Shown here: in pieces, positions 26,657-41,612 of the stretch | How positions within the stretch are numbered: the stretch's first letter is position 1 | Layout: the number at the start of each line of letters is the position of its first letter | From: Cloeon dipterum | Taxonomy: Eukaryota > Arthropoda > Insecta > Ephemeroptera > Baetidae | Assembly (NCBI RefSeq): GCF_949628265.1 | Contig: NC_088790.1 | Span: 23,130,545 to 23,194,544 of the forward strand | Direction of reading: 5' to 3' | DNA: 64,000 nt | The notes under the pieces: generated by a model | The model's input: the letters and a program-made list of their open reading frames with translations, nothing else | What the model was told of the DNA's origin: nothing | The model's database searches: none | Program-made: the position numbers and the translations under genes

Positions 26657-26876
26657 GCCATATTTTGCAGCCAGCCAGTTTCAAAGATACATTGTTTGAT
26701 ACTGGGCGATAAATCGATTCTTTCCTATCCTCATGCACGGCACGATATCAATATGTCGCCCAGTATCGCCCATTTAAAGAAAAAAACTAGCGTGCCTTTG
26801 CCTGGAATTGTATTATATGTTGTTTTGGGGGAGAAGGGCTATTATTGAATTAATTTTTGTGGCCTGTGGAAGGCCA

Positions 26877-26892
26877 GGCCCTGAAAAGAGCC
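26877..26892 (-). promoter_or_regulatory. Histone-type mRNA 3' stem-loop, macrodomain copy 1
   Basis: Minus-strand GGCTCTTTTCAGGGCC begins 40 nt after the TAA of the macrodomain gene. It forms a 6-bp stem (one G-U pair) around a UUUC loop and fits the replication-dependent histone consensus GGYYCTTTTHARRRCC at every position. In that class of mRNA it is bound by SLBP and replaces the poly(A) tail. Use here is inference. Confidence 0.6.
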
Positions 26893-26932
26893 GATTGAGG
26901 GAAGGGAGGAACCTTCTAACGGACCGTGAAGG

Positions 26933-27517
26933 TTAAGCTCGGGGTCGCGGTCGACCCGGAGCGTAGTCAAGCACATGGATCGTAATCCGTTGGCTAGCAA
27001 ACGCATAGTGCAGTTCCTCCAGAACGTAGTTCTGGTCCACGCCATCAAGGCCGGAACAGATCCGCGGCAAAAACAACTCGCGAAGGCTGTTCCGCCGCGC
27101 ATAACGCGCCAGCCCAGCGATCATGAGATGCATGCCGCGAATATGACCGTCCGGGTCGTGGTGGAATTTCTGCGTTGAACGCGGCTTGGAAACGCAGAGC
27201 AGCATCTTGGAATCGTCCGCCATTTTTTCAACCGCCACGTAGCCAAGGTCTGCACGCGGATGTTTGGACCGCAACACGTCCGGCCGCCAGCCTGTCAGCT
27301 GCCTTGTGAGCAGCGCCAGACCAGCGCCCATGGCGAAGTCGGCGCCAACAGCCTGGGCCTTGACCCCCGGGCACTTGAATAAATCGCCACGCGACACCCT
27401 GATGCGGCATCTACTTTTCGAAGGACGCTTAATTCCGTGACGCCGGATGCGATCGACGTCCTTCAAATACTTTTGGTACTCGCCGGACGGGCCGAAACGC
27501 GATTCCTGGCGCGACAT
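26933..27517 (-). CDS. TARG1/OARD1-like macrodomain ADP-ribosyl hydrolase, copy 1 (194 aa)
   Basis: Predicted to remove ADP-ribose from proteins, as human OARD1/TARG1 cleaves the acylester bond to glutamate. The intronless frame starts MSRQESRFGPSGEY; an upstream in-frame ATG at 27766 is rejected because sequence before 27517 varies between copies. After a basic N-terminus of about 42 residues comes the macro fold: GDLFKCP (44-50), MGAG (63-66), VSKPRST with Lys111 matching TARG1 Lys84, LPRICSGLDG with Asp158 matching TARG1 Asp125, and ITIHVL at the end. Both catalytic residues are present. The gene is GC-rich beside AT-rich host introns, and has an upstream TATA box and a histone-type 3' stem-loop. 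It could be a retrogene, a transferred gene or cargo of a mobile unit. Confidence 0.85.
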   Translation of the reverse strand: MSRQESRFGPSGEYQKYLKDVDRIRRHGIKRPSKSRCRIRVSRGDLFKCPGVKAQAVGADFAMGAGLALLTRQLTGWRPDVLRSKHPRADLGYVAVEKMADDSKMLLCVSKPRSTQKFHHDPDGHIRGMHLMIAGLARYARRNSLRELFLPRICSGLDGVDQNYVLEELHYAFASQRITIHVLDYAPGRPRPRA

Positions 27518-27639: not shown

Positions 27640-27645
27640 TATATA
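27640..27645 (-). promoter_or_regulatory. TATA box of macrodomain copy 1
   Basis: Minus-strand GGTATATATGCC lies 123 nt upstream of the chosen ATG, with an ATTGG (inverted CCAAT) just downstream. The same arrangement is kept in copies 2 and 3 (near 36330 and 41235). Histone genes commonly use TATA promoters, so this fits the 3' stem-loop. Confidence 0.45.
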
Positions 27646-28019
27646 CCTGCGATCGACGCTCCCTCTGTGTGAAGAAATTCACAACTATACCGGAAGGTAC
27701 CACTGCGGTACCCAATAATATATATATGTGTGTGTGTATAAAACATTCGGGTTTTTTCCAATGCACTTTTTAATTTTTGACCAAAGCTTTCTCACCGGCG
27801 GTTAGCGTGGCTGGCGCAGATCAGTTAGATTTATTGCGGCTAGCGGCGGCTGCCCACTTGACCTAAAATTTCCCGCGGCTGGCGCGTCGCATCGCAGCTG
27901 TGGCGGTAATTTTAAAGTGGACAAAAGTGATCGAAATTTATTTGAAATCTCGGATACACTAACTTGTAAGCAGTTGATCAGGAAACAATTTGTTCTACAA
28001 TTTGAAATAATGAAAAAGC

Positions 28020-35347: not shown

Positions 35348-35565
35348 GCCATATTTTGCAGCCAGCCAGTTTCAAAGATACATCGTTTGATACTGGGCGA
35401 TAAATCGATTCTTTCCTATCCTCATGCACGGCACGATATCAATATGTCGCCCAGTATCGCCCATTTAAAGAAAAAAACTAGCGTGCCTTTGCCTGGAATT
35501 GTATTATGTTGTTTTGGGGGAGAAGGGCTATTATTGAATTAATTTTTGTGGCCTGTGCAAGGCCA

Positions 35566-35581
35566 GGCCCTGAAAAGAGCC
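35566..35581 (-). promoter_or_regulatory. Histone-type mRNA 3' stem-loop, macrodomain copy 2
   Basis: The same 16 bases as in copy 1, 40 nt after the stop codon. Conserved although nearby bases differ (for example the base at 35558). Confidence 0.6.
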
Positions 35582-35621: not shown

Positions 35622-36206
35622 TTAAGCTCGGGGTCGCGGTCGACCCGGAGCGTAGTCAAGCACATGGATCGTAATCCGTTGGCTAGCAAACGCATAGTGC
35701 AGTTCCTCCAGAACGTAGTTCTGGTCCACGCCATCAAGGCCGGAACAGATCCGCGGCAAAAACAACTCGCGAAGGCTGTTCCGCCGCGCATAACGCGCCA
35801 GCCCAGCGATCATGAGATGCATGCCGCGAATATGACCGTCCGGGTCGTGGTGGAATTTCTGCGTTGAACGCGGCTTGGAAACGCAGAGCAGCATCTTGGA
35901 ATCGTCCGCCATTTTTTCAACCGCCACGTAGCCAAGGTCTGCACGCGGATGTTTGGACCGCAACACGTCCGGCCGCCAGCCTGTCAGCTGCCTTGTGAGC
36001 AGCGCCAGACCAGCGCCCATGGCGAAGTCGGCGCCAACAGCCTGGGCCTTGACACCGGGGCACTTGAATAAATCGCCACGCGACACCCTGATGCGGCATC
36101 TACTTTTCGAAGGTCGCTTTATTCCGTGGCGCCGGATGCGATCGACGTCCTTCAAATACTTTTGGTACTCGCCGGACGGGCCGAAACGCGATTCCTGGCG
36201 CGACAT
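35622..36206 (-). CDS. TARG1/OARD1-like macrodomain ADP-ribosyl hydrolase, copy 2
   Basis: Encodes the same 194-residue protein as copy 1, with Lys111, Asp158 and the MGAG and LPRICSGLDG motifs. I found five base differences from copy 1 in the coding region (around 36054-36059 and 36117-36130); all fall in third positions or are otherwise silent. The 5' flank before the ATG, by contrast, differs at several positions that would change residues if translated, which supports this start. The gene lies between repeat DNA (left) and receptor copy D (right, opposite strand). Confidence 0.85.
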   Translation of the reverse strand: MSRQESRFGPSGEYQKYLKDVDRIRRHGIKRPSKSRCRIRVSRGDLFKCPGVKAQAVGADFAMGAGLALLTRQLTGWRPDVLRSKHPRADLGYVAVEKMADDSKMLLCVSKPRSTQKFHHDPDGHIRGMHLMIAGLARYARRNSLRELFLPRICSGLDGVDQNYVLEELHYAFASQRITIHVLDYAPGRPRPRA

Positions 36207-36719
36207 GGAATGAGCGGAAAAGCGGATGTGAAAAACTAAAAAAAAGAGCGAGAAAAAGCGCGAGTAGGGAGCAGAGAGCGGGATGATGTCGATAAACGAC
36301 GATGAGCGCATTCCACTCAGCCAGGGCATATATACCTGCGATCGACGCTCCCTCTGTGTGAAGAAATTCACAACTATACCGGAAGGTACCACTGCGGTAC
36401 CCAATAATAAATATATATATATATATATGTGTGTGTGTATAAAACATTCGGGTTTTTTCCAATGCACTTTTTAACTTTTGACCAAAGCTTTCTCACCGGC
36501 GGCTAGCGTGGCTGGCGCAGATCAGTTAGATTTATTGCGGCTAGCGGCGGCTGCCCACTTGACCTAAAATTTCCCGCGGCTGGCGCGTCGCATCGCAGCT
36601 GTGGCGGTAATTTTAAAGTGGACAAAAGTGATCGAAATTTATTTGAAATCTCGGATACACTAACTTGTAAGCAGTTGATCAGGAAACAATTTGTTCTACA
36701 ATTTGAAATAATGAAAAAG

Positions 36720-39463: not shown

Positions 39464-40470
39464 TTCGCTATCTCTATTTCTAGGACTCAAAATGAGACCG
39501 GTTTGAATGTATTACTTTCTCAACAGTAAAAATGAATAACAAAACTTCATCCTCGTTGATTCTAGAGTTCTTATTTTCATTGGATTTTTGTACAACTTTC
39601 TTTCTACACCACGCCAACACAAACTTAAAAATTTAACAAATATCGAGATACTGTTTAGAAAATCTGCACTTTATTCGTGGCCATCGTGTCTCGCCGCCGC
39701 ATCAGCAAAATCTCCTCTCTCTGGCGGCGCAGCTCGCCTGCAACGCGAGTATTAGTGAAAATGAGGAACGATATGCAACCCGCGCTCAAAGATTGTTTGG
39801 CTGTGCAGATTCCTTCCCTTTTTGTAAGGCGTATGTGATGGCAAGATTTTAACAATGTGTATTTTGATGTCATTTTAATTCATATTATTTTCTAGTCTTG
39901 GCTCAGTTCGGCTGTGTTATCCTGACAGAAGTGTTTAACAGAAGTTTCGCCCGTTCTAACATTAATATTAAAAAAAATATTCAGGGTGTTTGCTAAAATT
40001 AGTGAGATTTTGTAGTTCGGCTTCGCCTGCTGGATAATTCTCTGCCCTCACACAGGGAAAATAAAGTTGATGAGCAGCAGATGCAACAAGTTTTTCAGGA
40101 ATAAAGATCTGTAGATGTTTGTTAAAATGAACAGCTCGCTACTCCACCAATTCACCAAGGAAGCCGCTTTTAATTTAAACTGAAAATTTTTTCAATTTTG
40201 AATGGTTTTCGGGGGTCGCTCACTCCCTCAACCCCTGTTTGGCCACGGGTGCCATATTTTGCAGCCAGCCAGTTTCAAAGATACATCGTTTGATACTGGG
40301 CGATAAATCGATTCTTTCCTATCCTCATGCACGGCACGATATCAATATGTCGCCCAGTATCGCCCATTTAAAGAAAAAAACTAGCGTGCCTTTGCCTGGA
40401 ATTGTATTATATGTTGTTTTGGGGGAGAAGGGCTATTATTGAATTAATTTTTGTGGCCTGTGGAAGGCCA

Positions 40471-40486
40471 GGCCCTGAAAAGAGCC
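40471..40486 (-). promoter_or_regulatory. Histone-type mRNA 3' stem-loop, macrodomain copy 3
   Basis: Identical 16-base element, 40 nt after the stop codon of copy 3. Confidence 0.6.
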
Positions 40487-40526: not shown

Positions 40527-41111
40527 TTAAGCTCGGGGTCGCGGTCGACCCGGAGCGTAGTCAAGCACATGGATCGTAATCCGTTGGCTAGCAAACGCAT
40601 AGTGCAGTTCCTCCAGAACGTAGTTCTGGTCCACGCCATCAAGGCCGGAACAGATCCGCGGCAAAAACAACTCGCGAAGGCTGTTCCGCCGCGCATAACG
40701 CGCCAGCCCAGCGATCATGAGATGCATGCCGCGAATATGACCGTCCGGGTCGTGGTGGAATTTCTGCGTTGAACGCGGCTTGGAAACGCAGAGCAGCATC
40801 TTGGAATCGTCCGCCATTTTTTCAACCGCCACGTAGCCAAGGTCTGCACGCGGATGTTTGGACCGCAACACGTCCGGCCGCCAGCCTGTCAGCTGCCTTG
40901 TGAGCAGCGCCAGACCAGCGCCCATGGCGAAGTCGGCGCCAACAGCCTGCGCCTTGACCCCCGGGCACTTGAATAAATCGCCACGCGACACCCTGATGCG
41001 GCATCTACTTTTCGAAGGACGCTTAATTCCGTGACGCCGGATGCGATCGACGTCCTTCAAATACTTTTGGTACTCGCCGGACGGGCCGAAACGCGATTCC
41101 TGGCGCGACAT
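40527..41111 (-). CDS. TARG1/OARD1-like macrodomain ADP-ribosyl hydrolase, copy 3
   Basis: Encodes the same 194-residue protein as copies 1 and 2. I found one base difference from copy 1 (near 40950, silent in an alanine codon). TATA box (near 41235), flanks and stem-loop match copy 1. Receptor copy E follows on the opposite strand. Confidence 0.85.
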   Translation of the reverse strand: MSRQESRFGPSGEYQKYLKDVDRIRRHGIKRPSKSRCRIRVSRGDLFKCPGVKAQAVGADFAMGAGLALLTRQLTGWRPDVLRSKHPRADLGYVAVEKMADDSKMLLCVSKPRSTQKFHHDPDGHIRGMHLMIAGLARYARRNSLRELFLPRICSGLDGVDQNYVLEELHYAFASQRITIHVLDYAPGRPRPRA

Positions 41112-41612
41112 GGAATAAGCGGAAAATCGGATGTGAAAAACTAAAAAAATGAGCGAGAAAAAGCGCGAGTAAGGAGCAGTGAGCGGGATGATGTCGATAA
41201 ACGACGATGGACGCATTCCAATCAGCCAGGGCATATATACCTGCGATCGACGCTCCCTCTGTGTGAAGAAATTCACAACTATACCGGAAGGTACCACTGC
41301 GGTACCCAATAATATATATATGTGTGTGTGTATAAAACATTCGGGTTTTTTCCAATGCACTTTTTAATTTTTGACCAAAGCTTTCTCGCCGGCGGCTAGC
41401 GTGGCTGGCGCAGATCAGTTAGATTTATTGCGGCTAGCGGCGGCTGCCCACTTGACCTAAAATTTCCCGCGGCTGGCGCGTCGCATCGCAGCTGTGGCGG
41501 TAATTTTAAAGTGGACAAAAGTGATCGAAATTTATTTGAAATCTCGGATACACTAACTTGTAAGCAGTTGATCAGGAAACAATTTGTTCTACAATTTGAA
41601 ATAATGAAAAAG

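Follow-up and report, generated by a model that had tools for sequence, protein, structure and literature searches.

In the mayfly Cloeon dipterum, a small family of intronless TARG1-like macrodomain genes, with nine intact copies in at least three lineages, ends in a 16-nt hairpin of the type known from replication-dependent histone mRNAs, and this hairpin is real and looks selected. Three of the copies lie within the stretch of 64 kb that was analysed (the window), and all genome-wide figures refer to the 190-Mb assembly with its 10 contigs. What an earlier, sequence-only reading had observed at these genes is confirmed, and what it had made of the observation is partly supported. The chances appear about even that a histone-type 3′ end was captured by genes of a TARG1-like hydrolase and subsequently modified, giving an mRNA that would be bound by SLBP and coupled to S phase.

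The window copies are minus-strand intronless ORFs (copy 1, 26933..27517; copy 2, 35622..36206; copy 3, 40527..41111) encoding an identical product of 194 aa, and the genome-wide search, in which 60 of 60 first-look candidates were scored, revealed three more intact copies on C3 and three on C5, together with broken pieces at L015/L031 and L035; the remaining matches are distant. The three copies in the window arose by recent duplication (dS of 0.007-0.043 among themselves) and therefore count as one observation, so that independent support comes from the six further copies. The lineages of the family are separated by a dS of 0.26-0.94 with a dN/dS of 0.12-0.20, indicating purifying selection on the coding sequence. 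The assignment to a TARG1-like macrodomain, already made in the sequence-only reading, is borne out by sequence, on which TARG1 membership rests: TARG1 is the sole match to the PDB at E values up to 1, represented by five distinct sequences (E 7.7e-8 to 1.2e-7) that are named C6orf130 or O-acetyl-ADP-ribose deacetylase 1, the best of which (2eee, E 7.7e-8) covers residues 35-180 of the product. D158 of the product, present in 14 of the 15 rows of the alignment, aligns with D125 of TARG1, which we take to be catalytic. K111, present in all 15 rows, aligns with K84 of TARG1, described as a catalytic residue in the accessible part of PMC8501950. The family product is thus probably a TARG1-like ADP-ribosyl hydrolase and a putative remover of ADP-ribose. 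It is homologous to TARG1/OARD1 (C6orf130) over the domain and keeps the positions of the catalytic Lys and Asp, but the mayfly family differs in having N- and C-terminal extensions past the domain, in being multi-copy and intronless, and in that no Pfam family matches the 194-aa product at E values up to 1. A protein search returned five proteins including the window's own, of which two are from Cloeon dipterum (87% and 82% identical to the window product, 92% and 88% to the best paralogues) and two are metagenomic (96% and 53% identical to the nearest paralogue). Given the best identities of 92% and 88%, the assembly may represent a different lineage of the Cloeon dipterum species complex.

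TARG1-like macrodomains are also present in ORFs of about 400-600 aa at L016, L019, L025, L027, L029 and L033 and in further distant matches. In our reading an APE-type endonuclease-like frame lies downstream at five of these six loci, with a short piece only at L029, and a macrodomain appears to be part of ORF1 in several families of non-LTR retrotransposons, for which a limited literature search found no report. These macrodomains are homologous to that of the family (23-32% identical in six alignment rows), but they reside in longer ORFs, and the loci scanned have no histone-like hairpin up to 250 nt from the end of the ORF.

The consensus of the histone hairpin is a six-pair stem with a four-nt U-rich loop, of the GGYYCTTTTNARRRCC type. 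In the window the stem-loop GGCTCTTTTCAGGGCC is located on the minus strand at 26877..26892, with ATC before it, at 35566..35581 and at 40471..40486, exactly 40 nt after the stop codon in all three copies, as had been claimed; the distance is 22-23 nt in the other six. A search of the window for GGCTCTTTTCAGGGCC with up to three mismatches gave three matches compared to 0.34 expected, and none of 100 shuffles reached three. The 16-nt hairpin is carried by all nine intact copies: five have GGCTCTTTTCAGGGCC, two have GGCCCTTTTAGGGGCC, and GGCCCTTTTCAGGGCC and GGCCCTTTTAAGGGCC are found once each. The exact 16-mer GGCTCTTTTCAGGGCC occurs five times in the 190 Mb, in each case within the family. 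The earlier statement that the element matches the histone stem-loop holds in that the 16-nt stem-loop is of the histone type, but in the version of the window copies the fourth pair is a U.G wobble, and the GGCT of this version is found in none of the 57 pattern hairpins outside the family; the hairpin of L009 is the histone version letter for letter. A six-pair stem is formed in every copy, with U-G instead of U-A as the top pair in L012 and L013. Counted by hand over the nine copies, all 54 pair cells are standard in spite of variation at two of the six pairs, and substitutions between lineages up to a dS of 0.94 apart have kept the pairing every time. A simple neutral simulation, for which we set the branch lengths from dS, kept all pairs in all three lineages in 4e-4 of the runs (4 of 10,000) and the histone pattern in 0 of 200,000. 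These figures, like the identities given below, leave gene conversion out of account, which would reduce the independence of the copies.

The Rfam model of the histone 3′ stem-loop, which the sequence-only reading had named as a check, speaks against a canonical element. RF00032 gave no match at cut-off in the whole window, and its best score on the window hairpin was 10.5 bits compared to a gathering cut-off of 34 (E 7.2, with the alignment misregistered). Up to an E value of 1 it matched none of five macrodomain loci within a mixed set of 13, and in a genome search that scored 75 of 42,447 first-look candidates, 17 of the 53 matches listed pass the cut-off and no macrodomain gene is among the 53. 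At E values up to 1, the window matches of a model built from 17 histone hairpins of the same assembly were confined to the three macrodomain hairpins (13.9 bits, E 0.35 each); the other six copies scored 15.4-22.4 bits and the histone-type ends supplied 24.5-50.4 bits. Taken together, the scores (10.5 bits with Rfam, 13.9-22.4 with the own-genome model) indicate that the hairpin is histone-like and that the flanks, except for the ATC, are not, the match to the genome's histones being limited to the 16-mer and the preceding ATC. A match of only 16 nt and ATC is what a GC-rich hairpin resembling the histone element by chance would offer, but such a convergence is very improbable, given that the five exact copies in 190 Mb all belong to the macrodomain family and that the pattern GGCYCTTTTHRGRGCC has 66 hits in the whole genome versus one for the reversed pattern.

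The histone ends of this genome typically read AAATC-hairpin-ACCCA, followed 23-29 nt on by the HDE AAAGCAAT, which is exact at 25 of 36 histone-type ends examined and has one mismatch at nine and two mismatches at two. The macrodomain ends read ATC-hairpin-YGGCC. The ATC is found in all nine copies and in 15 of the 17 members of a set of this genome's histones, and contacts of SLBP with the 5′ flank bases A3-A5 and with G7 have been described in the available text of PMC12775136, so that the contacted flank positions (ATC) appear to be kept in the macrodomain ends. The claim of a complete histone 3′ signal did not hold up: ACCCA 3′ of the stem is absent from all nine copies, which have TGGCC or CGGCC there, the exact HDE is likewise absent from all nine, and a second hairpin stands in their place. 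It follows directly 3′ of the first, as GGCCTT-4 nt-AAGGCC in six copies; in the window copies its stem is shorter and its loop has 5 nt, and it lies on the minus strand at 26860..26876 (TGGCCT-5 nt-AGGCCA, in the position that ACCCA has in histones), 35549..35565 and 40454..40470. Six copies have T-A as its outer pair and three have C-G, which amounts to one two-sided change by hand count and probably to one event. A covariation count on the model-fitted alignment neither gave a two-sided change nor exceeded shuffles, but this alignment places the window copies out of register at their second, shorter hairpin, and the hand count was used instead. After the second hairpin, AATTCAATAAT is found in register with the HDE, with two mismatches in eight copies and three in L009; in copy 1, CAATAAT (26841..26847, minus strand) is in register with the CAAT of AAAGCAAT and holds the candidate poly(A) signal AATAAT.

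The identity of four representatives is 81-84% across the 3′ block, 61-63% just after it and 70-82% over an inverted repeat further downstream, before dropping to 28-49% at about column 240 and beyond; the value for the repeat indicates that constraint is not confined to the hairpins. This repeat (GATACTGGGCGAyA / complement) is CGATA-rich and begins some 110-180 nt past the hairpin on the downstream side, and each of the nine paralogues retains one arm or both; in the window it spans 26698..26767 downstream of copy 1, 35389-35458 at copy 2 and 40292-40361 at copy 3. The whole conserved 3′ element of copy 1 (26820..26910, minus strand) scores 108.6 bits with model R1, which was built from these copies. 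Matches of this model on 30 other loci (37 up to an E value of 1, the best being histone-type ends at E 4e-4) were dropped as evidence, because they are driven by the shared hairpin; three weak antisense matches lie in L012-L014. No U7 RNA was located in the assembly. The U7 RNA model RF00066 gave no match, nor did it in the control. A loose pattern for U7 RNA gave 166 hits versus 39 reversed, and a tighter pattern gave one hit versus two reversed, a candidate that was rejected, as it reads to us like an intron end and folds no better than shuffles.

AATAAT is a rare poly(A) signal. It occurs at +30/31 in all nine copies, followed after about 50 nt by a T-rich stretch, and could act as a weak poly(A) signal, in which case the genes may produce ordinary polyadenylated mRNAs with the tandem hairpins, bound by SLBP or not, serving as 3′ UTR structure for stability, localisation or translation. 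We regard this reading as possible but rather doubtful: the loss of both ACCCA and the exact HDE and the way in which the second hairpin abuts the first are consistent with it, but AATAAA or ATTAAA is absent within 290 nt from all nine copies, the rarity of AATAAT counts against it, and the histone loop, stem and ATC flank would need another reason for being kept. In the histone set, 17 of 30 loci have AATAAA or ATTAAA within 300 nt.

The genome-wide census, which covers hairpins fitting GGCYCTTTTHRGRGCC, assigns nine of the hits to the macrodomain family. Among the 57 hits outside it, 54 are on histone genes, remnants, histone-fused or H3-tail-like genes, with four of the 54 placed by neighbourhood alone: 33 are in histone genes (32 read, including H1 and one odd H2A, and C5:2546798 placed by its histone neighbours), three at H2A remnants, five at RING-WWE genes fused to an H2B end, and 13 in a cluster at C5:24.58-24.67 Mb (10 read, the other three placed by position). 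Two hits are isolated, with neither a recognised gene nor an HDE. The view that the element is nearly exclusive to histones is therefore upheld by 54 of the 57 others, but the nine macrodomain copies carry the hairpin as well, and in this sorting of the 66 hits no clearly non-histone family other than the macrodomain genes has its own hairpin. At L075 (C4:32858379), an isolated histone-type stem-loop with an exact HDE has no recognised gene ahead of it. In the cluster at C5:24.58-24.67 Mb, the ten read hairpins (L037, L040, L042, L046-L048, L050 and L072-L074) are accompanied by an HDE that is exact in eight and has one mismatch in two, and seven of the ten stand behind small ORFs with TARMSTGG, corresponding to TARKSTGG of the H3 tail. 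These ORFs possibly encode H3-tail-derived proteins that are expressed like histones; for two proteins of the cluster no Pfam family was matched.

The RING-WWE gene is RNF146-like (PDB match at E 1.2e-12), has an apparent intron and is present in six protein-identical copies, L066-L071, at C5:2.55-2.61 Mb. Five of the six share one junction with an H2B end, whose stem-loop and HDE they thereby carry; the sixth is unfused and departs from the shared sequence at that junction. Two relatives with 68% identity have no such hairpin in the following 200 bases. Like the macrodomain family, the fusion joins a non-histone gene of the ADP-ribose pathway to a histone hairpin, but it differs in its apparent intron, in a hairpin and HDE derived from an H2B remnant, and in near-identical copies in or beside a histone cluster. 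The capture of a histone end is seen here in the same genome, and we propose capture for the macrodomain family, too: its 3′ end would have been taken from a histone gene and then modified, apparently earlier than the RING-WWE gene captured the H2B end, with the hairpin kept for SLBP and the remainder rebuilt. The five fused RING-WWE copies, together with the flank parts of the histone signal that are already lost from the macrodomain ends, could be read as signs of a relic, i.e. of a histone 3′ end that was captured by recombination and is now merely carried along. This is unlikely, however, as the substitutions in the hairpin all keep the pairing although lineage dS reaches 0.94, and the block retains 81-84% identity in the four representatives compared to 28-49% from about column 240.

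The intronless structure and the TATA box, which had been noted as features resembling histone genes, were both found as described. In copy 1, the promoter block TTGTGAATTTCTTCACACAGAGGG is at 27661..27684 and the TATA box (TATATA) at 27640..27645; the block is at 36350..36373 in copy 2 and 41255..41278 in copy 3 (all minus strand). Genome-wide and with up to two mismatches, the block TTGTRAATTYCTTYACACAGAGGG is confined to the nine family genes and a single divergent remnant that neighbours one of them, and the TATA sequence follows it at the same place in all nine copies. L012 has a second block in opposite orientation (2658-2670), separated from the first by ~400 bp, and the next 900 bp contain no intact macrodomain gene. 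The element GGGAGCGC was found in five of eight H2B promoters examined, in four of four H2A promoters (on the other strand) and in four of nine macrodomain promoters, but it was discarded as an element common to H2A/H2B and macrodomain genes, since the reversed control found the same 8-mer.

In summary of the comparison with replication-dependent histone genes and their mRNA 3′ end (RF00032; SLBP/U7), the macrodomain genes share a 16-nt hairpin with six pairs, a UUU[C/A] loop and an ATC flank, placed 22-40 nt after the stop codon of an intronless TATA gene, but they are non-histone, lack ACCCA and AAAGCAAT, have a second hairpin and score under the Rfam cut-off. In the capture model, SLBP would bind the hairpin and couple the mRNA to S phase; the enzyme would then be present while single-stranded DNA is exposed, and the 3′ end would be formed at or just past the second hairpin, using either a weak or altered U7 site or the AATAAT signal. 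S-phase-limited, non-polyadenylated expression of the macrodomain genes is plausible from their sequence; the link of the mRNA to S phase is one that we infer. More specifically, and more tentatively, with chances somewhat below even, this would be a non-histone family under SLBP control, whose hydrolase is made only in S phase from a non-polyadenylated mRNA ending in a histone stem-loop and a diverged second hairpin, such that the removal of ADP-ribose from DNA or chromatin would be timed like the supply of histones.

In the accessible parts of earlier work, the histone stem-loop is called unique to histone mRNAs, with no evidence for Slbp binding to non-histone RNAs (PMC2781718, 2009), and the hairpin is described as typical of replication-dependent histone genes only (PMC2642717); in a human SLBP data set, as given in the sections available, 35 of 49 peaks are in histone genes (PMC5892938). 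The titles and abstract openings surveyed, with most subscription journals outside the survey, describe no histone stem-loop on a macrodomain or TARG1 gene. According to the available part of one report, TARG1 protects single-stranded DNA that is exposed during replication (PMC8501950), and for this reason an S-phase-timed TARG1-like enzyme would make sense. The absence of ACCCA and of the HDE raises the question of which minimum of the histone signal is sufficient. The existence of a non-histone family with a retained hairpin would demonstrate that a histone end may be borrowed as a cell-cycle switch and, if true, would tie the removal of ADP-ribose in this mayfly to replication, where TARG1, as far as the accessible text goes, matters (PMC8501950).
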